DNA of 64,000 nt from Candidatus Saccharibacteria bacterium RIFCSPHIGHO2_12_FULL_44_22. Its GTDB lineage: Bacteria; Patescibacteriota; Saccharimonadia; Saccharimonadales; Saccharimonadaceae. Shown piece after piece: positions 7,870 through 41,006 of the stretch. The notes under the pieces are model-generated. The model was given only the letters and a program-made list of their open reading frames with translations. It did no database searches and was not told the DNA's origin. Each line of letters begins with the position of its first letter. Position 1 is the first letter of the stretch. The position numbers and the translations under genes were made by a program. The stretch spans positions 1 to 64,000 of the forward strand of contig MGCS01000013.1 in assembly GCA_001790515.1 (NCBI GenBank), given 5' to 3'.

Positions 7870-7957
7870 GCGCGGATGGTGGAATTGGTAGACACGAGAG
7901 ACTTAAAATCTCTTGGCCATTACGGTCGTGCGGGTTCAAGTCCCGCTCTGCGCACCA
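7870..7957 (+). tRNA. tRNA-Leu (UAA), CCA encoded; integration target
   Basis: An 88-nt class II tRNA: acceptor GCGCGGA / TCTGCGC, discriminator A, CCA at 7955-7957. The anticodon stem AGAGA / TCTCT has loop CTTAAAA, anticodon TAA (UAA). A long variable arm TGGCCATTACGGTCG follows. The last five bases (CACCA, 7953-7957) are part of the 10-bp direct repeat CACCAGAATT found again at 11111-11120, marking the tRNA 3' end as the insertion site of the neighbouring element. Confidence 0.95.
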
Positions 7958-9509
7958 GAATTGGGATTTTTCCAGAAATGTCGCTCTCACGGGCGATTTT
8001 TTCTTTTGTATTTTGTAATTCCTGCCACAGGCAAAAACCACTTTCCGCCCCCTTTCGGAAAGTGGTTTTTGGGCTTTCGCCGTTTGGGTTTTGGGTGAGG
8101 GTTTTGTTTTCTAAAAACAGGTTCAATCCAAAGATTTCAGACAAAACGGCTTTTTGTCCGTCAAAGTCGTTGCTTTCTCGCAAATAACAGATAGACTTTG
8201 CGGTTTCTAGCCATTTTCGCATAGGTTCTAACCAGGCATTTTGGTTGGCTGTAAGATTCGCCAAACTTTCCTCTAAACTTTTCTTTTCGCTTAAAATCTC
8301 CGATTTTTTGGCGAGAAAAGTTTGACGGTCAATATCTTGGTCTAAATAACTATCCAACAAAATCTTTTGTTTCGCCGTTAAACGAGCGACTTGCGTTCGC
8401 AAATCGTCTAGTAAAGATAAACTGCTTGAACTTTCGGCTTGCTCGTCTTGGCTCATTTTGTCAGTCATAAAATCGTAGATTTCAGGCGACATTGCATATT
8501 CGCCTAAAAGCCCCGAGAGTTGTGGCAACAAATCCTTTTCTCTTACTGGCGGTTCTACGCATTTAACGGCTCGTTTCTTACGAGAACACCGATAGTAAGT
8601 CCAGCTATGGAAATTGCCGTTTTTCTGCGTTTTGGTTTTTGTTTCGCTGGTTATGCTCATACCACAGCCAGCACATCTCAAAAGCCCTAAAAATGGCGTT
8701 ATAGGCTTGGTTTGCTTTTGGGTGTGTCCACGCTTTTCAATAACGGCTTGGACTTTATCGTAAAGGTTTTTAGAGATTATTGGCTTGTGGCGACCTTCGT
8801 GCAGTTCGCCGCAATACAGAAAATGCCCGTAATAAAACGGATTTTGCAAAATAGATTTTACTTTGTCGTCCTTAAATGTTTTTCCACCCGATGTTATCGC
8901 CCCATTTTCTTGTAAGAAATAGGCGAGATTTTCCATTGTTTGATCGCCTTTGGCGTACTGCTCAAACAATTCTTGCACAAGCGGTGCATACCGCTTGTCT
9001 ACAATGATTGTTTTAGTTCTGGTGTCGTTCAAGTAGCCAAAAGGTGCTTGGCTTGGAAAATCGCCATTTCTTACTCTGGCTCGTAACCCACGCTTGGTAT
9101 TTTCAGACAAATTATCTACATAGTATTTACTCTGACCAAACATAATAGATAACATAAACTTGCCTTGCGATGTGTTCTCAAATTGAAATACTGGAAATCG
9201 CAAAAAGTTTAGCGATGTTTGGTCAAGTAAATAGATAATTTGTCCGCCGTCTATGCTGTTGCGAGCCAGCCTGTCGGGGTGCCACGCCAAAATACCATTG
9301 GCTTCGCCATTTTGTATGCGAGAAATCATAGTGTTGAAAATGGGTCGCCCTGGACTTTTGGCGGTGCGTTTTTCTATCAGTTCGTCAATAACAACAAGTT
9401 CGTTATCTCTGGCATACTTTCGGAGTTCCGCAAGTTGAGCGTCAATGCTCAAAACTTGTTTGTCCTCTGTGTCCGTAGATTTACGAGTATACAAGATGTA
9501 TTTTTCCAT
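7920..9509 (-). CDS. Large serine recombinase (resolvase-type integrase)
   Basis: 529 residues from ATG 9509, which has a GGGGG ribosome-binding stretch; an in-frame GTG at 9521 is less likely. Residues 1-150 are the resolvase catalytic domain: YILYTRKSTDTEDKQVLSID holds the Tyr-x-Arg-x-Ser active-site pattern, with GILAWHPDRLARN downstream. A Recombinase domain follows (about 160-260, NPFYYGHFLYCGE), then a zinc ribbon (LLRCAGCGMS ... YYRCSRKKRAVKC) and a coiled-coil segment near 355-430. This order is that of large serine integrases. The frame runs out of the element into the antisense of tRNA-Leu, so the last residues RRAGLEPARP come from the tRNA T arm. In an excised circle the C-terminus would differ. 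Confidence 0.92.
   Translation of the reverse strand: MEKYILYTRKSTDTEDKQVLSIDAQLAELRKYARDNELVVIDELIEKRTAKSPGRPIFNTMISRIQNGEANGILAWHPDRLARNSIDGGQIIYLLDQTSLNFLRFPVFQFENTSQGKFMLSIMFGQSKYYVDNLSENTKRGLRARVRNGDFPSQAPFGYLNDTRTKTIIVDKRYAPLVQELFEQYAKGDQTMENLAYFLQENGAITSGGKTFKDDKVKSILQNPFYYGHFLYCGELHEGRHKPIISKNLYDKVQAVIEKRGHTQKQTKPITPFLGLLRCAGCGMSITSETKTKTQKNGNFHSWTYYRCSRKKRAVKCVEPPVREKDLLPQLSGLLGEYAMSPEIYDFMTDKMSQDEQAESSSSLSLLDDLRTQVARLTAKQKILLDSYLDQDIDRQTFLAKKSEILSEKKSLEESLANLTANQNAWLEPMRKWLETAKSICYLRESNDFDGQKAVLSEIFGLNLFLENKTLTQNPNGESPKTTFRKGAESGFCLWQELQNTKEKIARESDISGKIPILVRRAGLEPARP
7953..7962 (+). other. attL-like core (CACCAGAATT)
   Basis: Ten-base core overlapping the encoded CACCA end of tRNA-Leu; repeated directly at 11111-11120 and inverted at 9786-9795. 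Confidence 0.75.
8033..8070. terminator. 15-bp perfect hairpin inside repeat A (left)
   Basis: Stem of 15 bp (8033-8047 / 8056-8070) starting with five A and ending with five T, loop CCCCCTTT. It has the form of a two-way terminator but lies inside the recombinase reading frame; an identical hairpin is at 9678-9715. Function inferred. Confidence 0.5.
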
Positions 9510-9528
9510 TTTTACCCCCACTTAACTC

Positions 9529-9626
9529 AAAAAGCCGTATTGGTGCAACACAACTTGGAGAAACCAAATTGTTCCAATACGGCCATTTGAGCCAATAAAA
9601 AACGGCTTCTCATTAAGTTGTGTTGC
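9529..9626 (-). promoter_or_regulatory. Attenuator-like leader of the recombinase gene
   Basis: Read on the minus strand the leader has four paired segments in order a-b-a'-b': a = GCAACACAACTT (9615-9626), b = GCCGTATTGG (9574-9583), a' = AAGTTGTGTTGC (9545-9556), b' = CCAATACGGC (9534-9543), then five U (9529-9533). The b/b' hairpin with its U run has the form of an intrinsic terminator 20 nt before the start codon. The a/a' pairing is interleaved with it, so the two are either alternative structures or a pseudoknot. The predicted transcription start, set by TATAAT at 9633-9638, falls at the first base of segment a. Confidence 0.6.
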
Positions 9627-9632
9627 TCTTTC

Positions 9633-9638
9633 ATTATA
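9633..9638 (-). promoter_or_regulatory. -10 box of the recombinase
   Basis: TATAAT on the minus strand, just inside the inner end of repeat A (right copy); a -35 element, if present, would lie inside the repeat. Confidence 0.55.
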
Positions 9639-9641
9639 CAG

Positions 9642-9795
9642 CAAAACCCTCACCCAAAACCCAAACGGCGAAAGCCCAAAAACCACTTTCCGAAAGGGGG
9701 CGGAAAGTGGTTTTTGCCTGTGGCAGGAATTACAAAATACAAAAGAAAAAATCGCCCGTGAGAGCGACATTTCTGGAAAAATCCCAATTCTGGTG
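9642..9795 (-). repeat. Inverted repeat A, right copy (154 bp)
   Basis: Perfect reverse complement of 7953-8106. It lies upstream of the recombinase; the recombinase -10 box (9633-9638) sits just inside its inner edge. The 15-bp stem is repeated here and could stop transcripts entering from cassette 2. Confidence 0.95.
9786..9795 (-). other. Internal inverted attP-like core (CACCAGAATT)
   Basis: On the minus strand this core is flanked by arm B on one side and arm A on the other. That is exactly the arrangement expected at the attachment site of the excised circle: 284 bp of identical context. Confidence 0.7.
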
Positions 9796-9850
9796 AGTTT
9801 TTACGCCCACGCTAGAACCCATTTTAGCACCCAGAGCGAGAAATGAGATT

Positions 9851-9883
9851 TTCGGCGGGTCGCCCCCGACCCGACCCGCCGAA
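9851..9883. terminator. GC-rich hairpin inside repeat B (left)
   Basis: 12-bp stem TTCGGCGGGTCG / CGACCCGCCGAA with a 9-nt loop. It lies downstream of the cargo gene (stop at 9942); an identical hairpin in the right copy is at 11023-11055. Could insulate the cassette; inferred. Confidence 0.4.
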
Positions 9884-9941
9884 CTGCTCCGCAGGGATTT
9901 TGGGAAAGGTATTTTTTGAGACGGTGCGACCAGTCAGTTTG

Positions 9942-10946
9942 CTATTCAGGACGAGGCAGAAAACCGTCAAGCACCGCTTTTTGGTCTTTTTCAGATAAGT
10001 CGCCTTGCTCTAGTAGTTCGCCAAGCGTAGTGCGTATTTTCTGTTCTTGCTCCTCAGCAAGCAACTGCGAGACTTGTCCATACTGGTCAATCGTCATACT
10101 TCTCGATACCGTATTGATACCAGGACTATGGTAAAACTCACCATGTGCGATATCTACTCTGAGGAAACGGTCATCGCCGTCTGGTATGTCGTAGGTAGTC
10201 AGAGAGTTTCCGTCTGCAAACTCTCTGGTAATACTTGAGAGTTCCGTAGGCATTGGCGACGGAGCAACCTCAACGGTCGCAATGGGTAAACCGTGCCGCT
10301 CAGCGACTTCCCGTAACTGAGCATTGCGAGCAGGGTCGCCAAGTTCCTTTCCTTCTGGAGTTACCTTAAGCATAACACCGACAACCTTTCCGCCATCAAA
10401 CTTCATATCTATCTGGTTGTATTCGGCGGTAGACGCTGACTCTTGCAATTCCTCAACGCTGTCCATGCGTCCGTCAGCTATTTCACCGCCACAGTCAACA
10501 CGCGACATACCTTTAATGGCTTCCGGTATCGGGGCTTCGAGTAGCAAACCGCCCTCGCCGCAGAATGTTCCTTGTCGCTCATTGTTGAGTAAAGTCGTCA
10601 TTAACACTCCGCCCCGCTCCGAACCAATCTCTCCAAGTCGTTTTTCAACATCGCCGAGCGGCACATGCACTAAAAACGAATATGCTTCGTCGGGCAAGTA
10701 GGTGCGAGTTTCTGGTTTGTCTACCTCAAAAGCACGAGTGTTCGTCTCACTTTCATGCTGGGATAAGCAGTTCTCGCAATACGCCCTAACGGCTTCGAGC
10801 GTCATTTCTCCGTCGCAATCGGGACAACGCTCGCCAAGTTCATCGACCAATTCAGCAATTTCTCCTTTAACGGCTTCACGCTCCGCAGACTTGTCCGCTT
10901 CGGGAGATTTAGGCTTTTCGTTATTGTTTAATTTTTCATCTATCAT
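9942..10946 (-). CDS. Unrecognised zinc-ribbon protein, cargo of the element
   Basis: 334 residues from ATG 10946; the frame extends to 11063 but that part is inside repeat B. A TATACT box ends 8 nt before 10946, matching the host's leaderless style. An acidic N-terminus of about 45 residues rich in Glu/Lys is followed by one zinc-ribbon-like motif ERCPDCDGEM ... RAYCENC (Cx2C-x15-Cx2C). The middle (about 80-250) and the C-terminus (EEQEQKIRTTLGELLEQG) look like a globular and a helical part. No signal peptide, membrane helix or known enzyme motif is visible. I do not recognise the family. The base composition is more GC-rich than the neighbouring recombinase. Possible roles are a regulator or replication/maintenance factor of the element; neither is shown. 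Confidence 0.7.
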   Translation of the reverse strand: MIDEKLNNNEKPKSPEADKSAEREAVKGEIAELVDELGERCPDCDGEMTLEAVRAYCENCLSQHESETNTRAFEVDKPETRTYLPDEAYSFLVHVPLGDVEKRLGEIGSERGGVLMTTLLNNERQGTFCGEGGLLLEAPIPEAIKGMSRVDCGGEIADGRMDSVEELQESASTAEYNQIDMKFDGGKVVGVMLKVTPEGKELGDPARNAQLREVAERHGLPIATVEVAPSPMPTELSSITREFADGNSLTTYDIPDGDDRFLRVDIAHGEFYHSPGINTVSRSMTIDQYGQVSQLLAEEQEQKIRTTLGELLEQGDLSEKDQKAVLDGFLPRPE

Positions 10947-10955
10947 CTGTTGTAA

Positions 10956-10982
10956 GTATACCACGCTAACTGCGTGGTATAC
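10956..10982. promoter_or_regulatory. Operator-like perfect palindrome over the cargo promoter
   Basis: GTATACCACGC - TAACT - GCGTGGTATAC: two perfect 11-bp arms with a 5-nt spacer. It overlaps the TATACT -10 box of the cargo gene, ten nt from its start codon. The position fits a repressor operator; a hairpin at the mRNA 5' end is the alternative. Confidence 0.55.
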
Positions 10983-11120
10983 CGTCTCAAAAAATACCTT
11001 TCCCAAAATCCCTGCGGAGCAGTTCGGCGGGTCGGGTCGGGGGCGACCCGCCGAAAATCTCATTTCTCGCTCTGGGTGCTAAAATGGGTTCTAGCGTGGG
11101 CGTAAAAACTCACCAGAATT
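10981..11120 (-). repeat. Inverted repeat B, right copy (140 bp)
   Basis: Perfect reverse complement of 9786-9925, ending in the core CACCAGAATT at the right boundary of the element. Its inner edge overlaps the last two bases of the palindrome at 10956-10982. Confidence 0.95.
11111..11120 (+). other. attR-like core (CACCAGAATT)
   Basis: Right boundary of the element; sequence beyond it (AATTAATCGG...) is chromosomal and fits directly after the tRNA-Leu 3' end. Confidence 0.75.
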
Positions 11121-11124
11121 AATT

Positions 11125-11151
11125 AATCGGCCTATAAACGGTCGATTTTTT
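11125..11151 (+). terminator. Rho-independent terminator, probably the displaced tRNA-Leu terminator
   Basis: AATCGGCC / GGTCGATT stem with a 7-nt loop, followed by a T run. It starts 5 nt beyond the right core. If the element were absent it would lie directly behind tRNA-Leu. Confidence 0.7.
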
Positions 11152-11164
11152 AGTAGTAAAATGC

Positions 11165-35680: not shown

Positions 35681-35746
35681 GTGCTAATCATGATGAAAAG
35701 GCGAGAGACTAATAAAAAATCTCCAGAATATGAGGTCATTCTCTAA
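35681..35746 (+). CDS. Short leader ORF before the first MARLP protein
   Basis: Up to 21 codons from GTG 35681 (or 18 from ATG 35690), basic then acidic, ending in TAATG so that its stop overlaps the start of the next gene. AGGGGAA lies 6 nt before the GTG, the same spacing seen before the second MARLP gene, where the GTG starts the large protein itself. It could couple translation; whether a peptide is made is unknown. Confidence 0.35.
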   Translation: MLIMMKRRETNKKSPEYEVIL

Positions 35747-37998
35747 TGGCCAGACTTCCGCAGCCAGGAGGAGATGCAGGGAATTGGGGCAATATTCTCA
35801 ATGACTATTTAAGTGCGTCGCACAATGCAGATGGAACTCTAAAAGACAACAGTATTAGCGAGGCGCTACTTGACTCGGCACTTCAAACCAAAGTAAATAC
35901 GAGCGTCGATGACGCTACTTTGTTGGTAGCCGGTAAGGTTCGCTTGGCAGGTGATCTGGCGGGTACCGCAACGAGCCCTACGGTTCCTGGCCTTGCGACC
36001 AAATTGGATGTTGCCGTCAAAGATCTTGACTCGGTAATTATCACTGCCGAACGATTTGCCGGAGTGGATCTTACGGGTGCGACAAATTCACGCACTGCCT
36101 TGCAGGCGCTCATCGACGCAAGTCCAGCTGGTACCACGCTGTTATTTCCGAGGGGTGCCCGTTTATTAGTGAGCGGTAGTTTGAATAATGGTGGAAAATC
36201 GTTATTCTTGGATCTCAATGGATCGACGATTATCAAAGGATCAAACAGTACACTCTTCAACTTTACGGGTACTTATGAAACTCCGATCAACGTCACAAGT
36301 CAGTCTGTAGGTGCTATCACCACCGACGAAGAAACCAAACAAGCGACCGTCCTCGTACTCGCTTCAGCTCCTGGCTGGAAGGCGGGGGAGGTTGTCAAAG
36401 TATTCTCGGACGACGTAATTCCAGGAGGTCGCGCTGGCAATGGCACGGACGAATCAAGGCTGGGCGAGTACATGATTGTTAGTACAGTCAATGGCGCGAC
36501 TGTGACGCTCAACGGGCTTATCCGTGATGCGATGACGACGAACGTACGTGCTGCAAAACTCAATAATATACCGGTTGGTATTTCTAATGGACACATTGAA
36601 GTACTTGATAGCGGGATTGCAGCAGGTTGGTCAACCGGCATATCGCGATTTGCGGCGCTCATCAATCCTATAGTTCGCAATGTTCATATTCTGGGGTCAT
36701 CGGCAACTTGCTGGAACTTTACGGGCTGTTACCAGTATCTTGTAGACGGATGTACGAATAATTTTGCTGTCGATAAGTCCGGTACAAATATCTACGGATA
36801 CGGTGTCGTCGACAATGCATGTATGTTTGGTAAGGTTATCGCTTACCATGCGCAGCACGTTCGTCATGCATTTACCGACGATACTCCGCGCATACCAATC
36901 GGGTCGGGTCCCACGTCGTATGGTCGAACATACGGCACAAAAATCATCGGATCGACTTGTCATGGTTCGACGAATACAGCGTGGTCGACACACTCGTGTT
37001 CTGAGGCGGTCGAATTTATCGATTGTACAGCGGTTGATTCGATGAACGGATACGGTCTTCGTGGTCGCAAGCATATCGTGCGCGGAGGAAAAACGAAGAA
37101 TACAAAAAACGTCATTAAAATCTTTGCCGAGAGCAGTAGCGATTCTGATTCTTGGGGACATCGTATTTATGACTTGACGTCGGAAGGGTCTGTTGATGTT
37201 GCAATTACGGTATCGCTCAACCCTACGAGTGGAGTGCGCGAAACGCGACCGAATTATTTCTCACGTATAAAGATACTCGACCACGCCGCAGGGCTCTTGG
37301 AATGCACCAACGCAACGGTTATTATGGATAATTGTGATTTCGAGATGGCACCTGTCGTTCCCGATAATACGCATACATTTACATTGACCGCCAGTGCTCT
37401 TGAGGCGTACAATTCGCGTCTGGACTACACAAAGAACACGACAGGCAATAACCAACGTATTTTTTATCAGGCAAGCACGAGTGGATCAAAGGCAACATTC
37501 AAAGACACTAACCATATTAATACCGCCGATCATGGATCGCGTTCAGTGTGGCTCTATTTGGCGCAGACGTCATCGACTGTCGATATTTCTGAACTGAATA
37601 TCGCATTTACAATGTCAGCACTCAATGCAACGGGCATGAGCTCGAGTTCTCGATTTGAATGGAAGGTTGCAAGTTCTGGCCTTCATTCTGAATGGGTATC
37701 GCTCAGTTCGGCATCGATTCCAAGTGCTGCGCAAGCTGTCCGAGTTACTCGTACAAGACAGCAGACTATCACATTTAGCTGTACTCCTACCTCTGCTGGA
37801 GCAGTACTGTTCAATTTACCTGTAGGCGCTGTCTTGGGTCAGCAAATTATGATAGTGAACTTCGGCACACAGTCATTTACCGTTGCAAATGGCGTGACAC
37901 CGAATACGTCTTTAAAGACGGGTGCAGATACAAGCATTCCAGTCGGTGGTTATATGAACTTGATCTGGAGCGGATCGATTTGGCGCGAAATAGGATAG
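35746..37998 (+). CDS. Surface/tail-spike-like beta-helix protein with MARLP module
   Basis: 750 residues. The N-terminal 36 residues (MARLPQPGGDAGNWG.ILNDYL..SHN.DGT) match the start of the protein at 39438. Then a short coiled or repeat segment, a pectate-lyase-3-like start (SRTALQALIDASPAGTTLLF), and a long right-handed beta-helix (about 110-600) rich in Asn/Gly/Thr turns. A C-terminal beta-domain (about 640-750) follows. No signal peptide or membrane helix is visible. Beta-helices of this kind are found in phage tail spikes and polysaccharide lyases and bind or cut sugars. Export route unknown. Confidence 0.8.
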   Translation: MARLPQPGGDAGNWGNILNDYLSASHNADGTLKDNSISEALLDSALQTKVNTSVDDATLLVAGKVRLAGDLAGTATSPTVPGLATKLDVAVKDLDSVIITAERFAGVDLTGATNSRTALQALIDASPAGTTLLFPRGARLLVSGSLNNGGKSLFLDLNGSTIIKGSNSTLFNFTGTYETPINVTSQSVGAITTDEETKQATVLVLASAPGWKAGEVVKVFSDDVIPGGRAGNGTDESRLGEYMIVSTVNGATVTLNGLIRDAMTTNVRAAKLNNIPVGISNGHIEVLDSGIAAGWSTGISRFAALINPIVRNVHILGSSATCWNFTGCYQYLVDGCTNNFAVDKSGTNIYGYGVVDNACMFGKVIAYHAQHVRHAFTDDTPRIPIGSGPTSYGRTYGTKIIGSTCHGSTNTAWSTHSCSEAVEFIDCTAVDSMNGYGLRGRKHIVRGGKTKNTKNVIKIFAESSSDSDSWGHRIYDLTSEGSVDVAITVSLNPTSGVRETRPNYFSRIKILDHAAGLLECTNATVIMDNCDFEMAPVVPDNTHTFTLTASALEAYNSRLDYTKNTTGNNQRIFYQASTSGSKATFKDTNHINTADHGSRSVWLYLAQTSSTVDISELNIAFTMSALNATGMSSSSRFEWKVASSGLHSEWVSLSSASIPSAAQAVRVTRTRQQTITFSCTPTSAGAVLFNLPVGAVLGQQIMIVNFGTQSFTVANGVTPNTSLKTGADTSIPVGGYMNLIWSGSIWREIG

Positions 37999-39437: not shown

Positions 39438-41006
39438 GTGGCACGTTTACCACAACCAGGAGGAGACGCAGGGAATTGGGGAAGTATTCTCAATGATTAT
39501 CTTGCTCAGTCTCACAAATCCGATGGAACAATCAAGGATAATTCAATTGGTGCTGCGCAACTGCAAGATAATTCGGTCACTGCCTCGTCGCTCGCCCCAA
39601 GCAGCGTCACTAACGCCGCTATCGCCAACGATGCTGTCACGAAAACGCAGCTGGCACCGACACTTCGGACGGAACTAGACGCAAAGATAACAGATTCTGC
39701 CGCCAGCGCAACGTTTGCGCCAATAGCTGTGCAAACAGAAGTAGAGGGTCGTTTGAGCGAGGAAGAGCTTTTATCTCGTTTCGCGCCGCAATCTCTCGGT
39801 ATATCTCGAGCTGTACGGAGCGGACCTTTGACGGTATTCCTCGGCGATTCAATTTTTCAGAATTTGAATACCCTGACAAACCCCGCGCAGCCTCTGCTGG
39901 GTGAATCATTCGCTACTCTGGTTTCGTTGAGATCGAATCAACGAGTTTTGTATGGACGAAACGCGGGAGTGACGAACAATACCGTTCAGGATGCTGTCGC
40001 CCGGCTGCAAACGGACGTGATTGCGTACGCCCCCGATAAGTGCGTCATACTACTTGGCACTAACAATACTAACCAAGCGTCGCCTACAATGGCAGATACC
40101 ATGTTGGCGTACGAGAATGGCCTCATCCGTCCACTTCTCGAAGCAGGAATCGATCCAATTATCTGTACGATTCCTCCTCGTACTGGTATTCGCACATCTG
40201 AGCCAGCGACATACCGAAAACAGTCGACATGGAACGCGTTCCTCCATGGACTGGCGAATAAGTATCGATTGTTGCTGGTCGACACATACGCAGCGCTTGC
40301 TGACCCCGCAACGGGTGATTACAAGGCTGGATTTAGCGGTGATAATATCCACCCAACAAAAACTGGGTATTATGCTATGTCGAGTGCGTTTATAGCGGCA
40401 GTGTCGAGTCGCTACCCGGCCGACGGTGTGCAGCTAGAAAAGGATCGATATACGTCGATCAACCTTGCCGTCAACCCGCTGTTCCTCGAGGGAATGGGCG
40501 GTACTGGGAATCTGCTGCCGACGGGTTATCAGGGGTCTACAATGGGAGTGACTGTAACGGTCGAAGATCCGACTGTTGGTGATGGACTCGAAGCTGGGAG
40601 ATGGCTCAAGATTGTCAAAACGGATCCGGCGACACAAAAGACCGTCAGCTGGCTGCGCTCACTCGCAGCGCTTACGACAACCGGAAATCCATTTTCGGTA
40701 GGAGATCGTATTAGCTGGGGATTTCGATACAAACTGACCGCAGGAACAGACGCAACTACTTATGTCACCGTTGCTCTACGCTACACTGATTCGGGAGGCG
40801 CAAATGTCAAGATTATTACACCAGTCAATCAGTTTCAGTACGCGTCGGAAGGTGTTGTTTACTATGAATCCGTCATACCAGAAGGATGTGTAGGATTGCG
40901 CCTTGACCTATCGTTCGCGCCAGCATCTTTGCAAACTATCATGGTTGGTCAGATGACAGCTCGAAATCTGACAGGGCTTGGGCTGCCGGCACTTACCCGC
41001 CCGTAA
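39438..41006 (+). CDS. Surface/tail-spike-like SGNH hydrolase with MARLP module
   Basis: 522 residues from GTG 39438, with AGGGGAA 8 nt upstream. The same N-terminal module as 35746 (PQPGGDAGNWGSILNDYLA), a linker with repeated Ala/Ser-rich short units (NSVTASSLAPSSVTNAAIAN), then an SGNH/GDSL domain (about 125-335): block I FLGDSIFQN, block III LGTNN, block V DNIHPT with the His. A C-terminal beta-sandwich-like domain (345-522) may bind carbohydrate. No signal peptide. Esterases of this type often remove acetyl groups from polysaccharides. Confidence 0.82.
   Translation: MARLPQPGGDAGNWGSILNDYLAQSHKSDGTIKDNSIGAAQLQDNSVTASSLAPSSVTNAAIANDAVTKTQLAPTLRTELDAKITDSAASATFAPIAVQTEVEGRLSEEELLSRFAPQSLGISRAVRSGPLTVFLGDSIFQNLNTLTNPAQPLLGESFATLVSLRSNQRVLYGRNAGVTNNTVQDAVARLQTDVIAYAPDKCVILLGTNNTNQASPTMADTMLAYENGLIRPLLEAGIDPIICTIPPRTGIRTSEPATYRKQSTWNAFLHGLANKYRLLLVDTYAALADPATGDYKAGFSGDNIHPTKTGYYAMSSAFIAAVSSRYPADGVQLEKDRYTSINLAVNPLFLEGMGGTGNLLPTGYQGSTMGVTVTVEDPTVGDGLEAGRWLKIVKTDPATQKTVSWLRSLAALTTTGNPFSVGDRISWGFRYKLTAGTDATTYVTVALRYTDSGGANVKIITPVNQFQYASEGVVYYESVIPEGCVGLRLDLSFAPASLQTIMVGQMTARNLTGLGLPALTRP

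Follow-up and report, generated by a model that had tools for sequence, protein, structure and literature searches.

Near one end of contig MGCS01000013.1 of Candidatus Saccharibacteria bacterium RIFCSPHIGHO2_12_FULL_44_22 (assembly GCA_001790515.1), of which we analyzed positions 1 to 64,000 (hereafter the window), a tRNA-Leu(TAA) gene abuts a small integrative element at 7953–11120 that is built from a constant recombinase cassette (A…A′) and a variable cargo cassette (B…B′), each closed by its own mirror repeat. We consider it likely that the element represents a set of small integrative elements distributed across its phylum, in which integration swaps the C-terminus of the recombinase, and in which mirrored attachment (att) sites permit flipping and cassette exchange. 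Insertion at the tRNA 3′ end, the mirrors, a recombinase gene that spans attP, and the swapping and inversion of cargo between relatives can be read directly from the genomes; the mirror structure is secure, whereas the tail switch is what we infer.

Both mirrors are perfect. Arm A, 154 bp in length (7953–8106, forward strand), recurs with no mismatches as its reverse complement A′ (9642–9795, reverse strand), and the 140-bp arm B (9786–9925, forward) recurs equally intact as B′ (10981–11120, reverse). The two repeats abut, having in common a single inverted 10-bp core (9786–9795, reverse), while the outer copies of this core, CACCAGAATT, are direct and lie at the left end (attL, 7953–7962, forward) and the right end (attR, 11111–11120, forward). 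Joining the two outer ends would yield a B′-core-A junction that is the reverse complement of 9642–9925 over exactly 284 bp; the central segment A′-core′-B (9642–9925, reverse) is thus a complete, inverted attP-like site corresponding to the predicted circle junction. Chance repeats are ruled out, as the length and perfection of A and B lie far beyond the next best inverted repeat in the 4.1 kb compared, 23 bp at 83%. An initial annotation of the window had drawn this architecture, with its two perfect repeats, its three cores, the exact correspondence of the central and outer junctions, and the presence of attL, attR and a full attP-like site in opposite orientation; all of these held upon re-measurement, and the same plan recurs in a divergent element and in dozens of genomes.

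The target, the tRNA-Leu(TAA) gene, was placed by ARAGORN at 7870–7957 (forward). When joined at the core, the flanks of the element align uninterrupted to the tRNA-Leu(TAA)-lemA spacer of relatives, which establishes that the element was inserted and that its empty site is known, and supports the placement of attR. In one such relative (L245), 99 bp separate tRNA-Leu from lemA, and LemA is 94% identical. The native tRNA-Leu terminator (11127–11152, forward; the right flank of attB), recognized from its sequence and by alignment to these empty-site relatives, has been left behind at the right end of the element, which brings a new terminator for the tRNA within arm A.

We queried the recombinase against 198 family, 380 phylum and 295 order genomes together with GTDB, and called mirrors using a script that oriented each locus. 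A second element is present in this genome, inserted at tRNA-Met on another contig, with perfect mirrors of 139 bp and 171 bp, a recombinase 53–55% identical to that of the window, and a different cargo. The recombinase clade is spread throughout the phylum, and its named records are nearly all metagenome-assembled genomes (MAGs) of the candidate phyla radiation, comprising Saccharibacteria and Nomura-, Moran-, Yanofsky-, Roizman-, Woese-, Peregrini-, Falkow- and other groups. Three elements (L165, L199, L225) come from MAGs assigned to Syntrophaceae, Verrucomicrobiota and Kiritimatiellia, which may reflect misbinning or genuine spread beyond Patescibacteria. Both mirrors were present in 57 of the 149 non-redundant recombinase loci, the A mirror only in 65, and neither in 27; most of the mirror-less loci are cut by a contig end or contain partial genes. 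Among the A-only loci, 43 of 65 run out no more than 400 bp from the central junction, a place at which short-read assembly would be expected to halt. Two class-level searches furnished 48 further loci, 37 of which show the A mirror despite their short flanks; beyond the 57 elements with both mirrors, about 100 thus have the recombinase mirror. The initial annotation had named relatives with simple unique ends as the sign of an artefact; the relatives bear the same mirrors.

Median arm lengths are 135 bp for A and 159 bp for B, with arms reaching up to 334 bp, and the mirror plan is present in six single-contig genomes (G015, G070, G128, G303, G330 and G360). The mirrors are free of mismatches in 32 A and 41 B pairs although the recombinases diverge to about 40% identity, from which it follows either that recombination keeps the two copies of an arm the same or that they are made anew. 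More distant serine recombinases, one of them from the same genome and others from relatives (L082–L084), lack mirrors, indicating that the plan is specific to this clade. Among viral contigs there were just two real relatives, neither of them informative. A 3.7-kb contig (L196) was considered as a closed circle; this was ruled out because it begins with a tRNA fragment and is therefore integrated.

The recombinase (7920–9509, reverse; 529 amino acids as integrated) matched the Resolvase, Recombinase and Zn_ribbon_recom domains in Pfam (PF00239, 2.2e-21; PF07508, 1.1e-14; PF13408, 1.6e-8) and an integrase family in PHROGs (6.6e-82), in agreement with its earlier designation as a serine recombinase. 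Its domain composition is that which defines the large serine recombinase (LSR) family (an N-terminal resolvase domain, a Recombinase domain, a zinc ribbon and a coiled coil), and the modeled fold of a relative (L132b) matches LSR-DNA structures. The recombinase arc is nearly constant across elements, about 1.4–1.7 kb carrying the recombinase gene (int) alone, with a few larger ones; in L120, L123, L124, L126, L225 and L235, additional sequence or genes accompany the recombinase within the A mirror.

Insertion targets comprise 36 kinds of tRNA. The attP consensus reads AAAATAGGTTCTAGC-N6-GTAAAA-N3-cCCA, and the arm motif GTTC(G/T)A agrees with the universal tRNA T-loop. In attP, the GTTC lies at −23 from the core, and in the target tRNA the T-loop GTTCRA lies at −19, a 4-bp shift that is constant in nearly all elements. 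In the window, the attB motif is the T-loop GGTTCAAG of tRNA-Leu(TAA) (7933–7940, forward), and the T-loop-like putative recognition motif GGTTCTAGC is present as an inner copy (9811–9819, reverse) and an outer copy (11087–11095, forward), the GTTC of the latter beginning 23 bp ahead of the core as compared to 19 bp in attB. Rutherford and Van Duyne described a serine integrase zinc-ribbon motif that sits 5 bp closer to the center in attB (PMC3783163). As the 4-bp shift resembles this known 5-bp shift, the GTTC motif is probably the zinc-ribbon site, judging from its sequence and spacing; if so, the universality of the T-loop accounts for the 36 tRNA kinds used.

The placement of attP within the recombinase gene means that integration changes the recombinase itself. 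The recombinase open reading frame (ORF) runs on without a stop across arm A and the core, always in the same frame; the reverse strand of the outer arm A codes for the C-terminal linker, and the final codons and stop of the integrated gene lie inside the tRNA gene. The integrated protein thus ends in tRNA-antisense residues that differ with each tRNA, RRAGLEPARP in the window element. Read in the predicted circular form, the gene ends instead in arm B, with the motif LYxxARTYFxxx(x) followed by a stop. The element retains an orphan copy of this tail coding sequence, SFYAHARTHFSTQSEK-stop, in the center (9796–9846, forward), which would join the recombinase gene only in the circle or once cassette 1 has been inverted.

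Several observations bear on the conservation of the tail. Almost every readable element has the tail motif in the frame of int (95 matches, two of them chance matches in the linker). A stop codon follows no more than 17 codons from the start of the stretch scored in 70 of 76 elements, at the same codon in 43, as compared to a mean of 24.6 for shuffled sequences; the stops comprise 39 TGA, 31 TAA and 6 TAG. Downstream of the DNA motif, 34% of single-base differences are synonymous in frame 0 versus 17% in the other frames. One relative (L132, 8025–15259, with int turned to the reverse strand) carries two mirror elements in tandem at a single tRNA-Leu(CAG), and here the second recombinase reads into the B′ arm of the first element and is naturally tail-on. 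In the model of this recombinase (L132b), residues 1–477 are ordered and adopt the LSR fold, and the arm-coded linker and tail, residues 478–529, are disordered. Integration thus appears, from the model, to exchange a regulatory-looking tail while leaving the catalytic part intact.

The recombinase transcript likewise carries a conserved element. From a probable −10 box, TATAAT (9633–9638, reverse), located just within the A′ arm and kept as a TATAAT-like box in relatives, to the start codon, the leader (9515–9632, reverse) consists of a conserved pseudoknotted RNA with the helices P1, P3 and P2. In an alignment of 19 elements, 97.5% of the P2 cells are paired, and both partners have changed in 10 of 17 pairs; covariation scores 0.364 overall, versus 0.19 for shuffled and at most 0.17 for slid controls. 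Rfam identified no RNA family in the window element besides the tRNA. The leader pseudoknot probably controls synthesis or translation of the recombinase.

The cargo arc ranges from 0.6 to 8.5 kb and almost always differs between elements. In the window it holds one ORF of 334 amino acids (9942–10946, reverse) without a match in Pfam, PHROGs or PADLOC, and its predicted fold is uninformative (predicted local distance difference test score of 40). The initial annotation had called it a zinc-ribbon protein; the CPDC and CENC pairs behind that label are present, but with no Pfam match the label is only a guess. Sampled cargo includes type I and type III restriction-modification systems, an OLD nuclease, a Z1/helicase protein, an AAA helicase-nuclease, and an N6 methylase with AAA_13. 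Also represented are an alcohol dehydrogenase, a HydF-like maturase, a transporter of the EamA type, a CAAX protease and a surface protein resembling a sialidase. The HydF-like maturation GTPase is one of four genes in the cargo cassette of L194, a metabolic rather than a defense load. Our cargo survey detected no replication genes and no transfer genes common to the arcs, nor a recombination directionality factor candidate common to the elements. Ten cargo arcs (L050, L052, L054, L059, L062, L063, L069, L070, L133 and L134) possess a conserved stretch of ~45–80 bp at their B-arm end, inverted in L052, which is perhaps old arm sequence or a terminator.

Comparisons among close relatives capture the cargo in exchange. 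The window element, L046, L047 and L132 have int genes of 81–85% nucleotide identity and B arms of 94–95% identity, and their cargoes are unrelated. Two elements at tRNA-Lys(TTT) with int genes 88% identical (L075 and L134) have a cargo gene in common (homologous over 759 bp at 81%) that runs in opposite directions in the two. Inversion and replacement of cargo within a constant frame are thus seen to occur in nature, as far as sequence comparison can tell, and the earlier prediction of cassette swapping and inversion is upheld by these two sets.

The main cargo gene is on the forward strand in 30 elements and on the reverse strand in 26. The recombinase, on the other hand, faces the tRNA in 159 of 162 loci. 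The initial annotation had proposed that either attP may be used and that both genes would flip; the cargo behaves as expected, and the recombinase does not, from which it follows that the two attP copies are not used equally and neutrally. In the three remaining loci (L175, L275 and L314), the 5′ side of the recombinase abuts the tRNA, possibly a flipped, tail-on integrated state; as their contigs break at the other A arm, they may also be assembly paths through the A repeat.

Taken together, a model for the life cycle of these elements emerges. The circle would yield a tail-on recombinase, which integrates. If the recombinase's own end were joined to the tRNA, the tail would be lost and the element latched; if the other attP were used, or cassette 1 flipped, the gene would stay joined to the central tail, remain active, and react again until latched. 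Latching of this kind would produce a strong orientation bias for the recombinase although both attP copies are identical. Flipped elements are not common, which argues against a tail-on form able only to integrate and not to excise or invert. The mirror would serve as a spare site and a spare tail, letting inversion revive a self-disabling, 'suicidal' integrase, and recombination in the arms would allow inversion and exchange of the cargo cassettes, with arm identity kept by recombination between the arm copies. Changes in the coiled coil are known to loosen directionality (PMC3783163).

A number of observations weigh against this model. Every state except the integrated one is predicted, and the three flipped-looking loci are too few to show flipping. 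The region ahead of the motif is without frame-0 signal in the codon test, and the A/R/T codons of the tail overlap the T-loop-like DNA motif, so that part of the tail conservation is at the DNA level. The disorder of the tail and linker in the L132b model gives no role for the tail, the loss of which could activate the recombinase instead of silencing it. Lastly, some A-mirror loci are without a B mirror within several kb.

Two alternative readings deserve weight, both of which we regard as unlikely. The first is a circle in the manner of the yeast 2-micron plasmid, in which recombinase-driven inversion between inverted att repeats amplifies the element during replication, as Flp does, and tRNA integration is a resting form. 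The predicted circle indeed resembles 2-micron in having exactly two unique arcs split by identical inverted repeats that contain the recombinase target, with the recombinase gene on one arc; the dual orientation of the cargo relative to int and the L075/L134 inversion would fit as well, and the LI and A118 serine integrases and SCCmec Ccr are capable of attP × attP recombination (PMC3783163). Most serine integrases, however, do not carry out attP × attP. The 2-micron family employs a Flp-type tyrosine recombinase and encodes its own replication and partition, whereas the elements described here have a serine recombinase, integrate at tRNA genes and share no replication or partition genes; nearly all cargo genes differ, and the circle is only predicted, no free one having been seen.

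The second, which we find similarly doubtful, holds that the mirrors are handles for homologous recombination only, allowing cargo to be swapped between co-resident elements, with the C-terminal change a tolerated side effect. It is consistent with the replacement of cargo between frames with nearly identical B arms, and with the catalytic, zinc and coiled-coil parts of the recombinase lying outside the arms and surviving integration intact. It leaves unexplained, however, a conserved tail with its own stop, and a mirrored recombinase cassette that nearly always faces the tRNA.

Quite improbable is a single-strand route, by which a transformed DNA strand folds into a double-stranded attP, its A and B arms stacking at the core, and primes its own second strand. 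Folded on itself, one strand of the circle would give a perfect attP dumbbell in double-stranded form, natural competence is known in Saccharibacteria (PMC10633639), and the elements are without common transfer genes; yet double-strand exchange on the dumbbell would leave the chromosome arms hairpin-ended, and single-strand recombination is not known in the serine recombinase class. We give practically no credence to an assembly or amplification artefact: many contigs do break at the central junction as they do at repeats, but the long arms recur in many independent assemblies including single-contig genomes, each with unique sequence and a different tRNA, and the second element in the same genome together with the survey leads us to reject it.

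In its chemistry and fold, the recombinase belongs with known LSRs, and the plan of the family appears to be undescribed. The integrases of phiC31, Bxb1 and Listeria A118 and LI share the domain order, the fold, and the shift of the attB motif toward the core. To our knowledge, the elements of known LSRs possess a single attP that lies beyond the coding region of the integrase. In the present elements the gene itself contains attP, which occurs twice in inverted orientation; the shift is 4 bp rather than 5, and insertion takes place at the T-loop/CCA end of almost any tRNA. Our searches of the literature on the element and its host group, which took in no preprints and few subscription papers, turned up no description of a mirrored double-attP element.

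A further parallel is furnished by the suicidal integrases, which are described as confined to archaea and the tyrosine class, and for which persistence has been called a paradox and the exit of such elements questioned (PMC8371274). As here, the archaeal elements SSV1, pTN3 and pT26-2 have att within the integrase gene, and the gene is altered by integration. Integration breaks the SSV1-type tyrosine integrase into int(N) and int(C), neither of them active, whereas the bacterial serine recombinase loses only a tail and, unlike its archaeal counterparts, retains an intact spare site and tail inverted within the element. More tentatively, and with somewhat less confidence than in the general model, we propose that these elements may constitute a new class, a bacterial 'suicidal' serine integrase that escapes its own trap, in which flipping the recombinase cassette would wake the element without a separate directionality factor and the cargo cassette would be exchanged or inverted independently.

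Other systems share single features. Staphylococcal and enterococcal cassette chromosome (SCC) elements combine a serine recombinase, exchangeable cargo including defense genes, and a fixed chromosomal site, as here. SCC elements use CcrA/B or CcrC at rlmH, without mirrored cassettes or an att site inside a gene; an SCC assignment is ruled out by insertion into 36 tRNA kinds rather than rlmH. Integrons likewise pair one constant recombinase unit with many different cargo cassettes, and are ruled out by the serine recombinase and the single cargo unit; no attC hairpins or stacked arrays were found. A terminal-inverted-repeat transposon is excluded as the outer ends A and B differ, the outer cores are direct, and insertion is specific to tRNA 3′ ends. 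In Hin/Gin-type switches, inverted sites flank a segment found in both orientations; here, the cargo stands at 30:26, with inversion in the L075/L134 pair, and int at 159:3.

Elsewhere in the window (35746–37998 and 39438–41006) and on another contig (L013, 5287–7593) are encoded three large proteins with the common N-terminus MARLPQPGGDxGNWGxILNDYL, which look like a paralogue family of surface or tail-spike-like proteins; one of them directly adjoins the second mirror element.

Short-read assemblies systematically break inside mirror elements, and this should be borne in mind as a warning when such genomes are read. The compact recombinase, its natural multi-site targeting of tRNA genes, the putative C-terminal switch and the structured leader are directly testable in Escherichia coli. 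By means of the universal T-loop, one type of enzyme could use nearly any tRNA gene, and the spare site and tail offer a candidate explanation of how an integrase can keep moving despite damaging its gene upon integration. The elements look like a major undescribed family of gene carriers across Patescibacteria, a phylum-sized group with poorly understood gene exchange. Restriction-modification and other defense systems account for many of the sampled cargoes, and others are metabolic or surface genes.

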